Shown here: in pieces, positions 45,535 through 53,938 of the stretch
How the letters are laid out: each line of letters begins with the position of its first letter
How positions within the stretch are numbered: position 1 is the stretch's first letter
From: Pseudomonadota bacterium
GTDB lineage: Bacteria > Pseudomonadota > Gammaproteobacteria > Steroidobacterales > Steroidobacteraceae
Assembly (NCBI GenBank): GCA_947454465.1
Contig: CANGJP010000003.1
Span: 44,506-108,505 of the forward strand
DNA length: 64,000 bases
Direction: 5' to 3'
Program-made: the position numbers and the translations under genes
Notes under the pieces: model-generated
Told to the model about the DNA's origin: nothing
Database searches by the model: none
What the model saw: only the letters and a program-made list of their open reading frames with translations

Positions 45535-45987
45535 ATGGCCGCTGAACTGCACCAATCCACCCTACGCCGCGCGGCGATCGTCAAGATCATCCGCGAATCG
45601 GTGGTGCACAAGCAATCAGAGTTGGTCAGTCTACTGAAACAACAGGGTTTTGATGCCACCCAATCCAGCGTCAGCCGTGATTTGCGGGAGTTGCAAGTTG
45701 CCAAAGCCGGTGACCATTACATCGTGCCGCAAAATGCGATCAGTCAAACCGATCCCTTCAGCGCCATCAGTGGCTTTGTGACCCAAATTCGTACTGCCGG
45801 CAGTTCGCTGACGGTTATCAATACGCGCGCGGGCACGGCTCAGAGCGTGGCGGTTGCCATTGATCAAGCACAGTGGCCTGAAGTAGTCGGTACGATTTCT
45901 GGAGACGATACGATTTTCATCGCCACTGAAGACGGCCACGCACAGAAAACACTCGAGTCGCGTTTACGCGCCATCTTCTCCTTGTAA
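45535..45987 (+). CDS. argR: Arginine repressor ArgR
   Basis: A 150-residue ArgR. The N-terminal winged helix contains the SSVSRDLRELQVAK recognition region; the C-terminal hexamerisation and arginine-binding domain holds the GTISGDDTIF motif whose two Asp residues contact arginine. It is the first gene of the arginine cluster, 43 nt before argG, preceded by ARG-box-like palindromes. This puts the regulator inside the operon it likely controls, as in some Bacteroidetes clusters. Confidence 0.95.
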   Translation: MAAELHQSTLRRAAIVKIIRESVVHKQSELVSLLKQQGFDATQSSVSRDLRELQVAKAGDHYIVPQNAISQTDPFSAISGFVTQIRTAGSSLTVINTRAGTAQSVAVAIDQAQWPEVVGTISGDDTIFIATEDGHAQKTLESRLRAIFSL

Positions 45988-46030
45988 TTCCATTTCCTAT
46001 TGTTCCGATTATTAGAGATTGCTTTGCATC

Positions 46031-47248
46031 ATGACTGACACGATCCCTGCTGGTAACGAACCCATCCTGCTCGCCTTCTCCGGCGGTCTAGACACTTCCT
46101 TTCTGGTGCCTTGGCTGAAAGAAAATTATGGCCGACCAGTGATTACCGTCACTGTCGATACCGGTGGCATTGATGCACAAGCCGCCAAAGTACTCGAACA
46201 ACGCGCGCTGACCTACGGTGCGCAGCAGCAAATTTTGGTGGAAGCTAAACCCACGTACTTCGATCAAGTCTTGAAGTACTTGATCATGGGTAACGTCCGT
46301 CGTGGCAACCTGTATCCGTTATGCGTAGGCGCTGAACGCGTCATGCAAGCCCAAATCATTGCTGAATATGCCCGCAAGCTCGGCACCAAAATTGTCGCGC
46401 ACGGCTGTACTGCGGCCGGTAATGATCAGGTTCGCTTTGAAGTAGCACTACGTACGCTTGCGCCTGAACTGACCATTCTTGCGCCGGTACGTGATCGCGC
46501 CTTTAAGCGTCCGGAACAATTGAAGTATTTGCAGGACAAGAACTTGCCACTGCCACCTTATGGCGCAGCGTACTCGGTGAATCGTGGTCTGTGGGGTGTC
46601 ACTATTGGCGGCAAGGAGACGCTGACATCGAATGACACCATTCCTGACAGCGCGTGGGTGCTATCTAAAGATGCGTTCAGCACTCCACAAGCACCTGAAG
46701 TACACACCATCGGCTTCGATAAAGGCATTCCTTGTAGTGTCGATGGCGTCACTCTTAATGCCGTAGACGTCATTGAAAAGCTGGAAAGTATTGGCGCTAA
46801 ATTTGGCGTGGGCCGCGGCATTCATGTCGGCGATACCATCATTGGCACCAAGGGTCGTGTGGCTTTTGAAGCACCTGCTGCCGATGTGTTACTCAATGCT
46901 CATCGTGAACTGGAAAAATTAGTGCTCACGGGTCGTCAAACTCGCATTAAAGACAGCGTTGCCGCACCTTACGGTGACTTAGTGCATGAAGGCCAACACT
47001 TAGATCCCGTATGTCGCGACATTGAAGCCCTCTTGGTGTCTTCACAGCAACGTGTCACGGGTGAAGTCAAAGTGATGTATCGACCAGGCATGGCCTTTAT
47101 TGAAGGCGTTACTTCTAAATACTCCATCATGGCTGCATCGAAGGGAGTTTATGGCGAAGCTGCTGGCGAATGGACCGCTGCCGATGCACTGGGCTTTTCT
47201 AAAATGCTGTCGTTGACCGGTTCATTCTGGCAACGCGCAGGTAAATAA
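46031..47248 (+). CDS. argG: Argininosuccinate synthase
   Basis: A 405-residue enzyme (ATG 46031, the upstream TTG frame adds only four codons) that joins citrulline and aspartate using ATP. The N-type ATP pyrophosphatase motif AFSGGLDTSFLVPWL and the region AHGCTAAGNDQVRFE are seen, as are KGRVAFEAPAADVL and ARPG-like YRPGMAFIEGV. The second gene of the arg operon. Confidence 0.96.
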   Translation: MTDTIPAGNEPILLAFSGGLDTSFLVPWLKENYGRPVITVTVDTGGIDAQAAKVLEQRALTYGAQQQILVEAKPTYFDQVLKYLIMGNVRRGNLYPLCVGAERVMQAQIIAEYARKLGTKIVAHGCTAAGNDQVRFEVALRTLAPELTILAPVRDRAFKRPEQLKYLQDKNLPLPPYGAAYSVNRGLWGVTIGGKETLTSNDTIPDSAWVLSKDAFSTPQAPEVHTIGFDKGIPCSVDGVTLNAVDVIEKLESIGAKFGVGRGIHVGDTIIGTKGRVAFEAPAADVLLNAHRELEKLVLTGRQTRIKDSVAAPYGDLVHEGQHLDPVCRDIEALLVSSQQRVTGEVKVMYRPGMAFIEGVTSKYSIMAASKGVYGEAAGEWTAADALGFSKMLSLTGSFWQRAGK

Positions 47249-47299: not shown

Positions 47300-48391
47300 A
47301 TGAAGACTGTTGTCGTAGATAAGATCGCATCCATCACTCAAGCCCTGAACTTGAGCCGTGAATTGCGCATTGAAACGCAGAACATGCCGTGCGAAGAAGG
47401 CGTGGTGTTGGTGGTTGAAATTCTCACCAATAAATCCACGTACAACACACTGGAACTGACCAGCGGGCGTATGGCTAAAGTGGCACGTGGTGACATCGTG
47501 GTTGGCGCACTCGGTCACCGTCAGGCCTTGTTCGGTTATTCAGGTCACCTGCCTGAATCCGTCAAGGAAGGTGACATCATTCAAATGTTGAACATCGGTG
47601 GCGTGCTGGGTATTTGTGATTCAGCCAATCCAGATAAGGGCAAGCCTTTTGATTGCCGCGTGCTGGGTGTCGTATTGCAATTCCCCTTCCTAGGTGAACG
47701 CATCGGCGTGCCCGCTAAAGTTGGTTACAAACCACTCGACTTTAATGCCACGGTCAATACACGTGGCGTACCTGTCGTCGCCTTGGCCGGTACGTGCATG
47801 GAAGCCGGTAAAACGGCAGCGGCCTGCGTCATCGTATCGCGCATGCGTCATCGCGGCTTAAATGTGCATGCGTTCAAAGCGACTGGCGTGTCATTACGTC
47901 GCGACATTTTGGCAATGGAAGATGCTGGTGCGAAGAAAAGCGCGATTTTCACTGACTATGGCGTGGTCACCACCACCGCAAAAACCGGCCCTGCCATTAC
48001 CCGCACGCTTCTGACTGAAATGTCGCAGGGCGAGCCTGATGTGATTGTGTTTGAACTCGGCGATGGCTTGCTGGGCGCTTATGGTGTGGAAGCGATCTTA
48101 CTTGATCAAGACATCAAAAAATCACTGACTTCTGTCGTGCTCTCAGCAAATGACCCTGTCGCCGCATGGGGCGGTGTGAAATTGCTGCGCGAAAAATTCG
48201 GCATTGAGCCGAGTGTTGTGACAGGTCCTTCAACAGATAACGCCGTGGGCGTGAATATCATTCGCGACCAAATGGGTGTGCCTGCATTCAATGCGATGAC
48301 CGATGGCGTCGCCTTGGGCGACTGCGTGATTGACAGCCTGAAGCTGCCTGCACATGTGTTGGCTAAAGCTCATGTGGAGCAGTCCACATGA
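47300..48391 (+). CDS. P-loop protein of the arginine operon, DUF1611/DgcN-like C-terminal half
   Basis: A 363-residue protein of no certain name. The N-terminal ~150 residues form a beta-rich domain (MAKVARGDIVVGALGHRQ, KEGDIIQMLNIGG). Then a P-loop ALAGTCMEAGKTAA (Gly-Lys-Thr at 170-172), FKATGV, a Walker-B-like EPDVIVFELGDGLLGAYG (about 245-262), LSANDP, and the C-terminal GPSTDNAVGVNIIRDQMGVP. This layout resembles the C-terminal domain of DUF1611, a family containing DgcN, reported as a D-glutamate N-acetyltransferase. Its stop overlaps argC (ATGA) and all neighbours are arg genes, so a role in arginine synthesis is likely. It could supply the acylation step, since no argA or argJ is in the cluster. 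A GTPase-like or regulatory role is the alternative. Confidence 0.65.
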   Translation: MKTVVVDKIASITQALNLSRELRIETQNMPCEEGVVLVVEILTNKSTYNTLELTSGRMAKVARGDIVVGALGHRQALFGYSGHLPESVKEGDIIQMLNIGGVLGICDSANPDKGKPFDCRVLGVVLQFPFLGERIGVPAKVGYKPLDFNATVNTRGVPVVALAGTCMEAGKTAAACVIVSRMRHRGLNVHAFKATGVSLRRDILAMEDAGAKKSAIFTDYGVVTTTAKTGPAITRTLLTEMSQGEPDVIVFELGDGLLGAYGVEAILLDQDIKKSLTSVVLSANDPVAAWGGVKLLREKFGIEPSVVTGPSTDNAVGVNIIRDQMGVPAFNAMTDGVALGDCVIDSLKLPAHVLAKAHVEQST

Positions 48392-49449
48392 GTCACACAG
48401 TCCCAACGATTGTTCTAGGTGGTACCGGTTATGTAGCCGGTGAATTGCTACGCCTGATCGCTGGTCATCCTAAATTAGAATTGAAAGCCATTCTGTCTGA
48501 TAGCCAACCGGGTGAATTAGTCAGCAAGGCCTTTCCTCATTTAGCGAGTGTATACCCGCAATTGCAATACTCCAGCTTGGAGCAAGTCTCGCAATTGGTC
48601 ACCACGTTGCCGAAATCAGCTATTCTGGCTGCGGCACCACATGGCGTATCTCACAAATTACTTGATGGTTTATTGGCTGCGGCTGAACAAGCCGGCACCC
48701 ATCCTGTCGTGGTAGATATTTCAGCCGACTATCGTTATGCAACTGCCGAAGCGTATGAAGCAGTTTACAAACACACACATGGTGCACCTTCACGCATTAA
48801 AGACTTTACTTGTGCGGTACCGGAACATTTAAGCCAAGCCCTAACTAAACACGTTGCGCATCCAGGATGTTTTGCTACATCCCTATTGCTTTCTAGCGTG
48901 CCATTACTGAAATTAGGTTTAGTCGAGCCGCGTCTATTTGCATCTGCGATTACGGGCAGCACCGGTTCTGGACGCACGCCGACGGCAGGTACACATCATC
49001 CGCAACGACATAGTGATTTGTATGCCTACAATCCATTGGCACATCGTCATGCACCTGAAGTCACCGAAATTGCTTTGGCAGCTTCAGGCGTTCAAGCTGA
49101 ATTTTGTTTCGTGCCACATTCAGGCCCTTTCGCGCGCGGCATTCACACCACAATTCAAGCTACTGCAGTGAAGCCCATTAAAACGGCTGACTTGGTTGCA
49201 GCGTTGCGTGAGTTTTATCAGCACTCACCCTTCGTACGCGTCAGCAATGACATGCCACGCATTAAAGATGTGGTGACCAGCAACTATGCACACATCAGTG
49301 CTGCAGCCAATGGCAATACCATTGCGGTAATGTGCGCCATCGATAACCTCACTAAAGGTGCTGCCGGCGGCGCAGTGCAATGGATGAATCGCCTACTGGG
49401 CTTTGATGAAACTCTGGGTTTAATTACGCCTGCGCCGGGCTGGACCTGA
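48388..49449 (+). CDS. argC: N-acyl-gamma-glutamyl-phosphate reductase
   Basis: A 353-residue ArgC. The Rossmann motif VLGGTGYVAGELLRLIAGHP is followed by the active-site Cys161 in AHPGCFATSLLLS and ITGSTGSGRTPTAGTHHP, with a conserved His in FVPHSGPFARGIHTT. It reduces N-acylglutamyl-phosphate to the semialdehyde with NADPH; whether the acyl group is acetyl or succinyl is open here. Start overlaps the upstream P-loop gene by 4 nt. Confidence 0.95.
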   Translation: MSHTVPTIVLGGTGYVAGELLRLIAGHPKLELKAILSDSQPGELVSKAFPHLASVYPQLQYSSLEQVSQLVTTLPKSAILAAAPHGVSHKLLDGLLAAAEQAGTHPVVVDISADYRYATAEAYEAVYKHTHGAPSRIKDFTCAVPEHLSQALTKHVAHPGCFATSLLLSSVPLLKLGLVEPRLFASAITGSTGSGRTPTAGTHHPQRHSDLYAYNPLAHRHAPEVTEIALAASGVQAEFCFVPHSGPFARGIHTTIQATAVKPIKTADLVAALREFYQHSPFVRVSNDMPRIKDVVTSNYAHISAAANGNTIAVMCAIDNLTKGAAGGAVQWMNRLLGFDETLGLITPAPGWT

Positions 49450-49468: not shown

Positions 49469-50647
49469 ATGAATACGCAAAACGTTGCAACGCTTCCCAT
49501 CACACCAGATGAGCCTGATCATCTAGCCAAGGTGTATGCGCAATTTCCATTAGAAGTAGTTGATTCCAAGGGCGTCTATCTGCATACGCCGGATGGTCGC
49601 AAAGTACTGGATATGTATGGTGGTCATGCGGTAGCGGCCGTCGGCTATGGTCATCCCCGTTGGGTCGAGGCATTAACCAACCAAGCACATGCACTGGCCT
49701 TTCAAAGTAACGCTGTGCCCTTAGATGTGCGTGCCCGTGCCGCAACAAAGTTAGCAAAGTTCTGTGGTATCGGCATGAACACCGTGTTCTTTGTGAACTC
49801 GGGGGCTGAGGCGAATGAAAATGCTTTAAAGATTGCACTGAAGATGACAGGTCGTCGTCAGGTTGTCGCTGTTGAAGGCAGCTTTCATGGCCGTACTGCG
49901 GCAGCAGGCGCGGTCACATGGGGCGCAATGAAAAAATGGTATGGCTTTCCACAAGCGCCTTTCGATGTGCAATTTTTACCGTGTGATGATGTGACCGCGG
50001 TGCAAACCACGATTACAGAACACACTGGCGCAGTCATCGTTGAACCCATTCAAGGTGTCGCCGGTGCACGTGATTTATCCAAAGAATTCTTAGCGGCCAT
50101 TCGTCAACGTTGTAACGAAACCGGCACCATTTTGATTTTTGATGAAGTGCAATGCGGCATGGGTCGAAGCGGTTACCCGTTTGCAGCGAATTTTTACGGC
50201 ATCACACCCGACATCATCACCACAGCTAAAGCGTTAGGTGCGGGCTTTCCGGTGTCTGCGGTACTGATGAATGATTGTGTAGCAACCACCTTAAAAATGG
50301 ATGATATGGGCACCACATTCGGTGGCGGCCCGATGGCATGCGCCATGGTCGAAGTTGTGGTGGACATCATTCAAGATGAAGGTCTGCTAAATAATATTCG
50401 TGAACGCTCTGCTGAAATTCGCCAGAAATGTATTGTTGGTCCGGTCACCGCTATTCAAGGCGCAGGTATGTTACTTGGGCTTCGCACCACTCGACCTGCT
50501 AAAGAAATTCAAGCTGAACTGCTCAAGCGTGACATTCTTACCGGCACCAGCGGCGATCCTCATATCGTGCGTATCCTTGCGCCATATGTATTGGAATCAC
50601 AGCATGTCGATGCCCTACGTGCCGCATTATTGGATATAGGTCATTAA
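49469..50647 (+). CDS. argD: N-acylornithine aminotransferase
   Basis: A 392-residue class III PLP-dependent aminotransferase. Motifs: DMYGGHAVAAVGYGHP, FVNSGAEANENALKIA, SFHGRTAAAGAVTW, the PLP Asp in IFDEVQCGMGRSG and the Lys in TTAKALGAGFPVSAV. Within the arg operon it must convert N-acylglutamate semialdehyde into N-acylornithine with glutamate as donor. Begins 19 nt after argC. Confidence 0.95.
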   Translation: MNTQNVATLPITPDEPDHLAKVYAQFPLEVVDSKGVYLHTPDGRKVLDMYGGHAVAAVGYGHPRWVEALTNQAHALAFQSNAVPLDVRARAATKLAKFCGIGMNTVFFVNSGAEANENALKIALKMTGRRQVVAVEGSFHGRTAAAGAVTWGAMKKWYGFPQAPFDVQFLPCDDVTAVQTTITEHTGAVIVEPIQGVAGARDLSKEFLAAIRQRCNETGTILIFDEVQCGMGRSGYPFAANFYGITPDIITTAKALGAGFPVSAVLMNDCVATTLKMDDMGTTFGGGPMACAMVEVVVDIIQDEGLLNNIRERSAEIRQKCIVGPVTAIQGAGMLLGLRTTRPAKEIQAELLKRDILTGTSGDPHIVRILAPYVLESQHVDALRAALLDIGH

Positions 50648-50683: not shown

Positions 50684-51685
50684 ATGCAACGATTTTTAGA
50701 CTTGGCTGATTTTGAACGTGCTGAAGTAAAAGACCTACTGGGTCTGGCCGCACGGCTGCAACAACATCCCGACCCCCATGCACTTGCTGGAAAGGTGTTG
50801 GGATTACTGTTCATGAATCCTTCACTGCGTACGCTTGCATCATTTCAAAGCGGCATGATGCGTTTGGGTGGCTCGGTGTTTGTGGTCACGCCCGGACAAG
50901 GCACGTGGCAACTGGAAACTCGCAATGGCGCGGTAATGAATGGCACAGCAGCCGAACATATCAAAGAGGCTATTCCGGTCATGGCCTCATACTGCGATGC
51001 ACTCGGCGTGCGTATGTTTGCTGAAGGTAAAAACCTACACGCCGACATCAATGAAACGGGCTTCAAGATGATTGCGGATCTGTGCGACAAGCCACTCATC
51101 AATTTGGAATCCGCAGTGAATCATCCCTGCCAAGCGCTGGCCGACTGGTACACCATGGATGAACTAAACGTGCCCGAGCGTGGCAAGTTCGTGATGTCAT
51201 GGGTGAACCACCCGCGAGCGCTACCGCTTGCTGTGCCTTCTGCCACAGTGCAAATGGCGGCTATGCGTGGCATGGAAGTAGTGGTGTTGCGTCCTGATGG
51301 TTATGCACTGCCCGATGCGATCATGGAAAAAGCGCGCGCGGCGGCTAAAGCTTCAGGCGGCATTGTTACTGAAACCACTGATCGCCATGCCGCTTTGAAA
51401 GGCGCACAAGTGGTATATGCCAAAGAATGGGGCTCACCCCAACATTATGGCGATGCCGAGGCTGAAACACGGCTGCGCGAAGATTTAATGGATTGGTGCG
51501 TAAAAGACAGTTGGTTTAAACATACCGATCCTGACTGCCACTTGATGCACTGTTTACCGGTACGCCGTAATGTTGCTGTTGACGATGAAGTACTGGACGG
51601 CTCACACAGTGTGGTGATTCGTGAAGCTTTCAACCGCATGGTGGTGCAAATGGCCGTACTGCATCGACTGTTACGCAACAAATAA
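50684..51685 (+). CDS. argF': N-acylornithine carbamoyltransferase, probably N-succinyl type
   Basis: A 333-residue transcarbamylase. It has the carbamoyl-phosphate motif FMNPSLRTLASF in place of the STRT of true ornithine transcarbamylase, WVNHPRALPLAVP, and MHCLPVRRNV with Cys290. These mark the N-acylornithine transcarbamylases (Xanthomonas AOTCase, Bacteroides SOTCase). The 80s-90s loop VMNGTAAEH carries Ala90 where Xanthomonas has Glu92 (N-acetyl) and B. fragilis has Pro90 (N-succinyl). From published mutagenesis, Ala at this position gives succinyl specificity, so I predict N-succinylornithine as substrate. Product would be N-acylcitrulline, which needs a deacylase before ArgG; that gene is not in the window. 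Confidence 0.88.
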   Translation: MQRFLDLADFERAEVKDLLGLAARLQQHPDPHALAGKVLGLLFMNPSLRTLASFQSGMMRLGGSVFVVTPGQGTWQLETRNGAVMNGTAAEHIKEAIPVMASYCDALGVRMFAEGKNLHADINETGFKMIADLCDKPLINLESAVNHPCQALADWYTMDELNVPERGKFVMSWVNHPRALPLAVPSATVQMAAMRGMEVVVLRPDGYALPDAIMEKARAAAKASGGIVTETTDRHAALKGAQVVYAKEWGSPQHYGDAEAETRLREDLMDWCVKDSWFKHTDPDCHLMHCLPVRRNVAVDDEVLDGSHSVVIREAFNRMVVQMAVLHRLLRNK

Positions 51686-51779: not shown

Positions 51780-52700
51780 ATGTCCATCCACACCGATCCC
51801 ATGGTTACAGTCAGTGCGTTAAAGAGCGCCGCGCCCTATATCCGCCTGTACAAAGGCAAGGTGTTCATCATCAAAGCCAGCGGCGGCGTGTTTGGTAATC
51901 CCGATGCCACGCGTTCATTAATGGAACAAGTCGCCATCCTGCATCAAGTAGGCATTCGTGTGGTCATTGTGCACGGTGGCGGTGAACAACTGACCGGTAT
52001 TCAACAATCCATGGGCATTGAACCCCGCATGGTGGCCGGTCGTCGTGTCACCGATGCCAAGTCGATTGAAGTCACCAGCATGGTGCTCAATGGTTTAGTC
52101 AACACACAAATTCTTGGCATCTGTCGTGAACTGTCCATTAACGCCGTCGGTGTCAGCGGTGTCGATGCTGGCTTGATTAAAGCGCACAAACGTCCACCTG
52201 TTGTTGTGAATGGCGAGACTGTGGATTACGGCTTTGTCGGTGACATTGATTTGGTTGATGCCAAAGTGTTGCAACAATTACTCGATGATGGCTTGATGCC
52301 CGTGGTCAGCCCTGTCTCTTGTGATGACAAAGGCGTATTGCTCAACATCAATGCAGACACCGTGGCTGCAGCAATCGGTTCGGCATTGAATGCTGAAAAA
52401 CTTATGTTGGTCACCGGCGCACCGGGCATCATGGAGTCTTTGGAAGATCCCCATTCGTTGGTGTCTTATACCGACTTGAATGGTCTAAAAAAACTCAAAG
52501 ACCAAGGCAGCTTGAAAGACGGCATGTTGCCAAAAGCCACTGCTATTGAATCGGCTATCAAAGGCGGCGTGCGTCGCGTGCATTGCATTTCTTACAAAAC
52601 GCCAGATAGCGTATTGATTGAAGTATTCACCAATGAAGGCACGGGCACATTGATTGTGGAAGACATCAAGGCACTGACTGCGGCCGAGCAAGGCAAGTAA
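51780..52700 (+). CDS. argB: N-acylglutamate kinase
   Basis: A 306-residue amino-acid kinase. Motifs: KASGGVFGN with the active-site Lys, IVHGGGEQLTGIQQSMGIEP, GRRVTDAKSIEV, and the C-terminal NADTVAAAIGSAL and GSLKDGMLPKATAI. The VDYGFVGDIDLVDA segment and the GRRVTDA variant (instead of GLRVTDA) recall Bacteroides ArgB, which uses N-succinylglutamate. Longer N terminus than E. coli ArgB (about 20 residues). Between argF' and argH in the operon. Confidence 0.93.
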   Translation: MSIHTDPMVTVSALKSAAPYIRLYKGKVFIIKASGGVFGNPDATRSLMEQVAILHQVGIRVVIVHGGGEQLTGIQQSMGIEPRMVAGRRVTDAKSIEVTSMVLNGLVNTQILGICRELSINAVGVSGVDAGLIKAHKRPPVVVNGETVDYGFVGDIDLVDAKVLQQLLDDGLMPVVSPVSCDDKGVLLNINADTVAAAIGSALNAEKLMLVTGAPGIMESLEDPHSLVSYTDLNGLKKLKDQGSLKDGMLPKATAIESAIKGGVRRVHCISYKTPDSVLIEVFTNEGTGTLIVEDIKALTAAEQGK

Positions 52701-52753: not shown

Positions 52754-53938
52754 ATGTCTAGACTTTGGGACAAAGGTGCACCCCTCGATTCACGCGTGTT
52801 GCAATATACCGCCGGTGACGATCATGCCTTGGACAATCGATTGGTAGCTTACGACGTGCGTGCATCCATTGCACATGCACAAATGCTCACAACTCAAGGC
52901 TTACTGTCTGCTGAAGATTGCAAATTGATTTGCGATGGCCTTACCGCCATTGGTAATGAACATACCCAAGGCAAGTGGCAAGTCACGCTAGAACATGAAG
53001 ATGGTCAGACCGCACTGGAAACATTACTCACGCAACGCATCGGTCAAGCTGGTGCGCGCGTGCATTTAGGTCGCTCACGTAACGATCAAGTGCTGACTGC
53101 CCTGCGTTTATATTTACGCGATGCCACCAGTGATTTGAATGAAGCCGTACTGAATGTCGCTACTGCGTTAGATGCATTAGGTGAACGTGAAGCAGATACC
53201 GCGTTACCCGGTTACACACACATGCAACAAGCCATGCCTAGTTCAGTGAAGCTCTGGGCCGGTGGCTTTGCCGCTGAATTGCGAGATGATGCGGCGGGCT
53301 TGATGCATGTGCAGCGACGTGTCGGCAAGAGCCCCTTAGGTTCAGCCGCAGGGTATGGCACACCTAACTTGCCATTGAATCGTGCAGCCACGGCGAAAGC
53401 ACTGGGCTTTAATGAAGTGCATGAACCGGTCACCGCGGTACAACTGTCACGCGGCAAAGCCGAAGCGCAATTGTTATTTGAAATTTCCATGGTGATGCAG
53501 GATGTCGCACGCCTGTCTTCTGACCTGTGTTTGTTCTACACGCAGGAGTTTGCGTTCGTCTCGCTACCCGATGCTTTCACCACCGGCTCATCCATCATGC
53601 CGCAAAAGCGTAACCCTGATGTATTCGAATTGATTCGTGGTCGTTCTGCGGCTGCACAGGCGGCGTTGTTTGAAGTGCTAGGCATTGTCGCCAAGCTACC
53701 TTCAGGTTATCAACGTGATTTGCAGCTGATCAAAGTACCGCTGTTCCGCGCTATTGATTTATGCAGCGAAACACTCAATATTCTTGCCCCTGCATTAGCG
53801 GAAGTGAAATTCAGAAAAGAAAATATCTCGATGGATGCGTCAATACACGCGGCAGCAGAAGCCTATGAGTTGGTAAAGAATGAAGGCATTCCGTTTCGGG
53901 AAGCATACGTTCGGGTTGGGAAGAAGTATTTGAAATAG
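52754..53938 (+). CDS. argH: Argininosuccinate lyase, short form
   Basis: A 394-residue member of the fumarase/aspartase superfamily, clearly ArgH by HLGRSRNDQVLTALRLY, LPGYTHMQQAMPSS, SPLGSAAGYGTPNLPLNR and the flexible catalytic loop TTGSSIMPQKRNPDVFEL. The protein ends right after GIPFREAYVRVGKKYLK, about 50-60 residues before the usual C terminus (430-460 residues). The tail after this point is variable in Xanthomonas- and Bacteroides-type ArgH, so the enzyme may still work. No frameshift is apparent downstream. Last gene of the operon. Confidence 0.93.
   Translation: MSRLWDKGAPLDSRVLQYTAGDDHALDNRLVAYDVRASIAHAQMLTTQGLLSAEDCKLICDGLTAIGNEHTQGKWQVTLEHEDGQTALETLLTQRIGQAGARVHLGRSRNDQVLTALRLYLRDATSDLNEAVLNVATALDALGEREADTALPGYTHMQQAMPSSVKLWAGGFAAELRDDAAGLMHVQRRVGKSPLGSAAGYGTPNLPLNRAATAKALGFNEVHEPVTAVQLSRGKAEAQLLFEISMVMQDVARLSSDLCLFYTQEFAFVSLPDAFTTGSSIMPQKRNPDVFELIRGRSAAAQAALFEVLGIVAKLPSGYQRDLQLIKVPLFRAIDLCSETLNILAPALAEVKFRKENISMDASIHAAAEAYELVKNEGIPFREAYVRVGKKYLK

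Follow-up and report, generated by a model that had tools for sequence, protein, structure and literature searches.

Arginine gene cluster of the window

We analyzed a 64,000-nucleotide stretch of DNA (the window; G000:C3:44506-108505) from a genome of 2.14 Mb that is 93.5% complete. It carries an arginine cluster whose genes lie on a single strand in the order argR-argG-X-argC-argD-argF'-argB-argH, where X stands for a gene encoding a P-loop protein and for that protein itself.

45535..45987, + strand: argR, arginine repressor (Pfam Arg_repressor domains above cut-off; TIGR01529 at 117 bits, just below its cut-off of 130)
46019..47248, + strand: argG, argininosuccinate synthase (TIGR00032 at 285.8 bits, above cut-off)
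47300..48391, + strand: X, P-loop protein, predicted N-succinylglutamate synthase of the first step (from context, distribution and AlphaFold model)
48388..49449, + strand: argC, N-acylglutamyl-phosphate reductase (TIGR01850 at 283.7 bits, above cut-off; 4-nt overlap with X)
49469..50647, + strand: argD, N-acylornithine aminotransferase (best model TIGR00707 at 327.7 bits, below its cut-off of 410)
50684..51685, + strand: argF', knotted-type transcarbamylase (NF003384, an N-acetylornithine carbamoyltransferase model, at 343 bits)
51780..52700, + strand: argB, N-acylglutamate kinase, 306 aa, without a fused NAT domain (TIGR00761 at 205 bits, above cut-off)
52754..53938, + strand: argH, argininosuccinate lyase, 394 aa, without a fused acetyltransferase (TIGR00838 at 317 bits, above cut-off)

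A first-pass annotation of this DNA had placed X between argG and argC, and this was confirmed, with argG ending at 47248 and argC starting at 48388, where the stop of X and the start of argC share ATGA. It had also described a cluster with ArgB, ArgC, ArgD, ArgF', ArgG and ArgH that lacks argA, argJ, argE and any GNAT, and our Pfam and NCBIfam scan of the cluster gave the same inventory. Separately, we noted that ArgH (52754-53938) is short: because its profile match stops at position 388 of 455 and its C-terminal domain is matched only weakly (17 bits), the C-terminal part of the protein is reduced.

Sequence and predicted structure of protein X

The ORF at 47300-48391 (+) has an ATG start and encodes 363 amino acids. 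No family in Pfam or NCBIfam matched X above its cut-off, the best being DUF1611 at 17 bits (cut-off 25); within the same two collections no GNAT family matched at E-values up to 1, nor did PF01960 (ArgJ). Proteins of this type are named "hypothetical" or "DUF1611" in their sources, and the names on close homologues include Steroidobacteraceae, Steroidobacter and Povalibacter, which assigns the window to the Steroidobacter group. The AlphaFold model (pLDDT 91) comprises a P-loop domain and a beta-rich part. The P-loop and the Walker-B-like motif recognized in the first-pass annotation were found at residues 164-172 and 248-256, and in a 21-sequence alignment each of the two domains has many charged positions that never vary.

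47300..47752, + strand: N-terminal beta-rich domain, approximately residues 1-151 (no Pfam match; unaligned with the DUF1611 N-terminal part)
47789..47815, + strand: Walker A P-loop GTCMEAGKT, residues 164-172 (GKT in 103 of 103 homologues of the fetched loci)
47876..47905, + strand: KATGVSLRRD, residues 193-202 (K193, T195, G196, R201 and D202 invariant in the 21-sequence alignment)
48041..48067, + strand: Walker-B-like VIVFELGDG, residues 248-256 (E252, G254, D255 and G256 invariant in the 21-sequence alignment)
48233..48241, + strand: TDN motif, residues 312-314 (present in 103 of 103 homologues; the five group b paralogues in the alignment lack it)

Structural matches of X include dethiobiotin synthetase-like folds and nucleotide-dependent accessory factors such as HypB, and MobB was among the weak sequence matches. 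In the model, the P-loop domain shares its fold class with dethiobiotin synthetase, CTP synthase and DUF1611. The likeness of fold and Walker A to dethiobiotin synthetase would suit a role of X in supplying carbamoyl phosphate or some other cosubstrate through a similar carboxylation and phosphorylation; however, the source genome encodes a full-length CarB (1562 bits), and we regard such a role as extremely improbable.

The first-pass annotation had compared X to DUF1611/DgcN while noting a different N-terminal domain. The kinship holds for the fold of the P-loop domain and not for the N-terminal part, which neither aligns with its DUF1611 counterpart nor matches any Pfam family, so that its distinctness was borne out. 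A profile of X aligned with four DUF1611 proteins over columns 153-347 only, and in ten further X homologues PF07755 scored 25.7 and 26.4 in two myxobacterial proteins and 14.3-23.6 in the other eight (cut-off 25). The link between X and an acyltransferase, DgcN, is a distant one that extends over the P-loop domain only, and this counts against the function proposed below.

Other relatives of X were also observed. Relatives that are nearly full-length form a second group, found in L114, L115 and L116 and, by sequence, also in L113, L117, L165 and L175. In L114-L116 the gene directly adjoins an M20 peptidase gene and, in L114, also a flavin-reductase-domain gene, to which an ORF in L116 is similar. 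Such relatives occur also in X-negative genomes (G038, G042) and possibly represent another N-acyl amino acid system. A third group (L118, L119, L164, L166-L174), from Gammaproteobacteria, has about 340-380 aa and 25-33% identity; in L164 and L166-L174 no adjoining arg gene was matched.

Absence of a known first enzyme from the source genome

The first-step enzymes named in the available parts of sources that include PMC9026213 are the GNAT-related ArgA, S-NAGS, ArgO, C-NAGS, NAGS/K and ArgA2, ArgJ, the deacetylase homologue ArgA3, and H-NAGS. None of them is presented in these sources as a P-loop protein, and a literature search, whose coverage excluded most subscription journals, found no publication on the X gene.

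The proposal of the first-pass annotation depended on there being no argA or argJ elsewhere in the genome, and none was found genome-wide. ArgJ (PF01960) and matches to the ArgA model TIGR01890 above cut-off were absent from all 59 genomes searched, including the source genome, in which the sole match to TIGR01890 is the ArgB kinase domain. The NAT domain (PF04768) likewise had no match in the source genome at its 93.5% completeness. Its GNATs amount to six PF00583 matches, one of them sub-threshold and one of them RimI, and none of the others reached an NCBIfam/amino-acid acetyltransferase cut-off. The single M20 match is DapE (553 bits). For comparison, a cluster without X (L120) encodes ArgB-NAT and an ArgE-type deacylase, both of which are absent from the window cluster.

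Conservation of the locus and mutual exclusion with ArgB-NAT

Among 88 fetched loci, some of which possibly represent one species twice, X adjoins argC in every one and the order argG-X-argC is kept in 86. The two exceptions, L029 (7391-11129) and L036 (7454-11104), keep argR-X-argC-argB, and their clusters are without argG, argD and most or all of argF; L036 also lacks argH there, while L029 retains an argF remnant and its contig ends inside argB. The missing genes may lie elsewhere in those genomes, and the arrangement represents loss or relocation of the later arginine steps. Because these stripped clusters keep X beside argC and argB, X is placed with steps 2 and 3. X occurs with argF' in the 74 clusters that have a full ArgF', which, together with the count of 0 of 59 genomes for argA and argJ, is the pattern that the first-pass annotation had proposed to look for.

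X was present in 47 of the 59 genomes (49 matches, two of which were only a paralogue at 33% identity). All 12 genomes without X were searched for NAT: in nine the search found the NAT domain that is fused to ArgB in the Xanthomonas type, and the remaining three gave no match to an ArgA/ArgB-type model either. Conversely, the NAT domain was found in none of the 37 X-positive genomes searched (37 of the 47 being in the NAT sample). We also scored 296 genomes of the order (Steroidobacterales), counting a match at E up to 1e-40 as presence of X. X was present in 238, NAT in 22 and both in none (Fisher p = 7e-26, computed ignoring descent). ArgB was detected in 266 genomes, of which 236 have X, 22 have NAT and 8 have neither, so that 258 have exactly one. 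Of the 36 genomes with neither, 28 had no ArgB match; two genomes had X without an ArgB match.

Five of the eight ArgB-bearing exceptions were fetched (G560, G518, G570, G619 and G573; G489, G642 and G663 were left out). Their contigs end inside X, with the C-terminal part held (G560), 61 nt upstream of argC (G518), inside argC (G570, G619) or inside argF' (G573), which is compatible with X having been lost at assembly gaps. As a separate observation, families f10 and f13 of the order include genomes with no match to ArgB, X or NAT (e.g., G044, G057, G047), which are possibly arginine auxotrophs.

These distributions bear on whether X could be a P-loop protein that assists or regulates the arginine enzymes, with a generic GNAT performing the first step. 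HypB among the structural matches, MobB among the weak sequence matches and the presence of GNATs without an assigned role in the source genome (e.g., L097, L099, L100) would agree with such a role. However, the exclusion of NAT and the absence of X from most ArgB-less genomes fit an essential pathway step, both domains of X contain many invariant charged residues and the cluster contains no GNAT, so that we consider an accessory role quite unlikely.

Specificity residues of ArgF' and the acyl group

According to the available part of PMC4581275, acetyl-type ArgF' is marked by Glu92, Asn185 and Lys302, the succinyl type has A/S/P/V/Q, P and V/I/E at these positions, and H176, R178 and R278 of the Bacteroides enzyme serve as anchors for the succinyl group. 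We read the diagnostic positions in Xanthomonas numbering, with alignment columns verified by spacing (93 and 210), in 89 ArgF' sequences: 74 from X loci, 8 from non-X genomes and 7 from short loci of X-positive genomes. The window ArgF' has Ala92, Pro185 and Ala302 together with the His/Arg/Arg succinyl anchors. Ala92 and Pro185 were found in all 74 X clusters with a full ArgF', in the seven short loci and in the five fetched exceptions, and Glu92 and Asn185 in all eight non-X clusters. Position 302 in the X clusters is Ala in 69 of 74 and Val in five, never Lys; Ala lies outside the succinyl-type list in the available text of PMC4581275. Within the H-P-R anchor, 64 of the 74 X clusters conserve the middle Arg, and the three clusters outside the order have Lys. 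Ala302 and the incomplete conservation of the anchor Arg count against a clean succinyl-type assignment of ArgF'.

Three more NAT genomes, among them G524 and G540, have Glu/Asn/Lys. G524 and G540, with NAT and an acetyl-type ArgF', come from a family (f7) in which many genomes are X-positive, and their ArgF' branches inside the Xanthomonas-type clade in the tree; the whole pathway type therefore seems to have been exchanged as a unit, rather than X alone.

In a class-wide sample of 369 genomes, strong X matches occurred in nine, five from the same order and four from outside it (G343, G097, G290 and G175; three families, 41-46% identity). All four outside loci have argG-X-argC, and the three on long contigs have a permuted order, argD-F'-B-H-G-X-C. 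Positions 92/185/302 of the three visible ArgF' proteins are Pro/Pro/Glu, Pro/Pro/Glu and Val/Pro/Glu, which agree with all three succinyl criteria. In the tree these proteins cluster with SOTCase, the succinylornithine enzyme of Bacteroides (support 0.92), and not with the window clade; X thus occurs together with two distinct ArgF' lineages, each of which has succinyl-type residues. Holophagaceae, Stigmatella, Hyalangium and Myxococcus are the names on further homologues, which are about 67-72% identical to the G097 protein.

Because the companion ArgF' carries succinyl-type residues, X most likely makes N-succinylglutamate, not N-acetylglutamate. An X that catalyzed the same step with an acetyl group, as an N-acetylglutamate synthase, would agree with DgcN, reportedly a D-glutamate N-acetyltransferase with acetyl-CoA as donor. 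The PDB title of 7xrj reads "N-acetyltransferase DgcN-25328", the window ArgF' passes the N-acetylornithine carbamoyltransferase model at 343 bits, and its position 302 is outside the listed succinyl type. Nevertheless, this ArgF' has Ala92, Pro185 and the His/Arg/Arg anchors, the acetyl-type genomes read in the same order have Glu92/Asn185 and no X, and position 92 is Pro or Val in the X clusters from other orders. We therefore judge acetylation by X to be unlikely.

Proposed function of X

We propose that X is probably an N-succinylglutamate synthase, with which a succinyl-type arginine pathway begins; that it is an N-acylglutamate synthase of either kind appears highly likely. This assignment, a prediction from sequence data, rests on genome context and on the specificity residues of ArgF'. 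The first-pass annotation had suggested that X acylates glutamate in place of ArgA, with either an acetyl or a succinyl group. The pathway gap, the operon and the exclusion of NAT support part of that suggestion, and succinyl is now favored over acetyl.

In the proposed pathway, X would succinylate L-glutamate on its amino group to give N-succinyl-L-glutamate, which ArgB, ArgC and ArgD would convert to N-succinylornithine. ArgF' would then carbamoylate this compound to N-succinylcitrulline, and after desuccinylation to citrulline, ArgG and ArgH would carry out the last steps to arginine. DapE removes a succinyl group in lysine synthesis and, as the only M20 enzyme found in the source genome, is probably the desuccinylase. 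Alternatively, X itself might be a late N-succinylcitrulline desuccinylase, with another enzyme making N-succinylglutamate; the window cluster also lacks the deacylase present in the non-X cluster L120. We find this very unlikely, given that DapE is present and no candidate synthase was found in the source genome, that in the stripped clusters X remains together with argB and argC and not with argF, argG or argH, and that X excludes the NAT synthase. Moreover, the fold of X is of the P-loop NTPase type, which does not seem to be that of any known hydrolase with such an activity.

For X as the synthase, the P-loop domain would bind the donor, which may be succinyl-CoA, in analogy to DgcN and acetyl-CoA, or ATP activating free succinate, and the beta-rich N-terminal domain would help bind the acidic substrates. 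Since X keeps a GKT that is absent from the four DUF1611 proteins, both succinyl-CoA and ATP plus succinate are candidate donors. Tentatively, and with a lower probability than an even chance, X may be a CoA-independent N-succinylglutamate synthetase, a BioD-like ligase in which ATP activates free succinate (or a similar acid) for joining to L-glutamate. Such a ligase would constitute an ATP-driven protecting-group step without an acyltransferase, with DapE serving both lysine and arginine synthesis.

If X is the N-succinylglutamate synthase, it would be a new, unrelated solution to the first arginine step, which has been replaced several times by different proteins. It would explain how arginine synthesis starts without ArgA or ArgJ in most sampled members of the order, and possibly also in the homologue-bearing Myxococcota and Acidobacteriota, and succinyl-type arginine synthesis would extend beyond Bacteroidetes. 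A "hypothetical" or "DUF1611" protein would gain a function, the acetylornithine annotation of these ArgF' proteins would be corrected, and a gap in pathway prediction would become directly testable.

Comparison with known systems

DUF1611/DgcN proteins have the overall P-loop domain fold in common with X; however, the four that were aligned have GKM, GKK or GKR where X has GKT, and DUF1611 genes have epimerase- or racemase-like neighbors and no arg genes, whereas X adjoins argC throughout. By eye, an epimerase-like gene lies beside DUF1611 in four of six loci (L182, L183, L184, L187). In L185 and L186, also by eye, the DUF1611 gene is followed by an alanine-racemase-like gene in the epimerase's place, which suggests another D-amino acid pathway. 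BioD (dethiobiotin synthetase) has the P-loop fold and an intact GTxxxxGKT, as X does, but consists of about 220 residues without an X-like N-terminal domain and belongs to the biotin pathway.

LysX and ArgX would be analogues of X if X uses ATP, in that the amino group of glutamate is protected in an ATP-driven manner. In the available part of PMC4490483, glutamate is ligated to a carrier protein at the expense of ATP; this system differs from X in its RimK-like ATP-grasp enzyme and its carrier protein.

Within the order, the first step in X-negative genomes is filled by ArgB-NAT (Xanthomonas type, PF04768), in which, unlike X, NAT is fused to ArgB and the partner in the clusters read is an acetyl-type ArgF'. 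The Bacteroidetes N-succinylglutamate synthase ArgA2/BT3761 catalyzes the reaction predicted for X, and both are linked to arg genes and to a succinylornithine-type ArgF' (available parts of PMC9026213 and PMC7311316). The partner of succinyl-type ArgF' in Bacteroidetes, as far as given in PMC9026213, is a member of the GNAT family, whereas X has a P-loop and matches no GNAT model.
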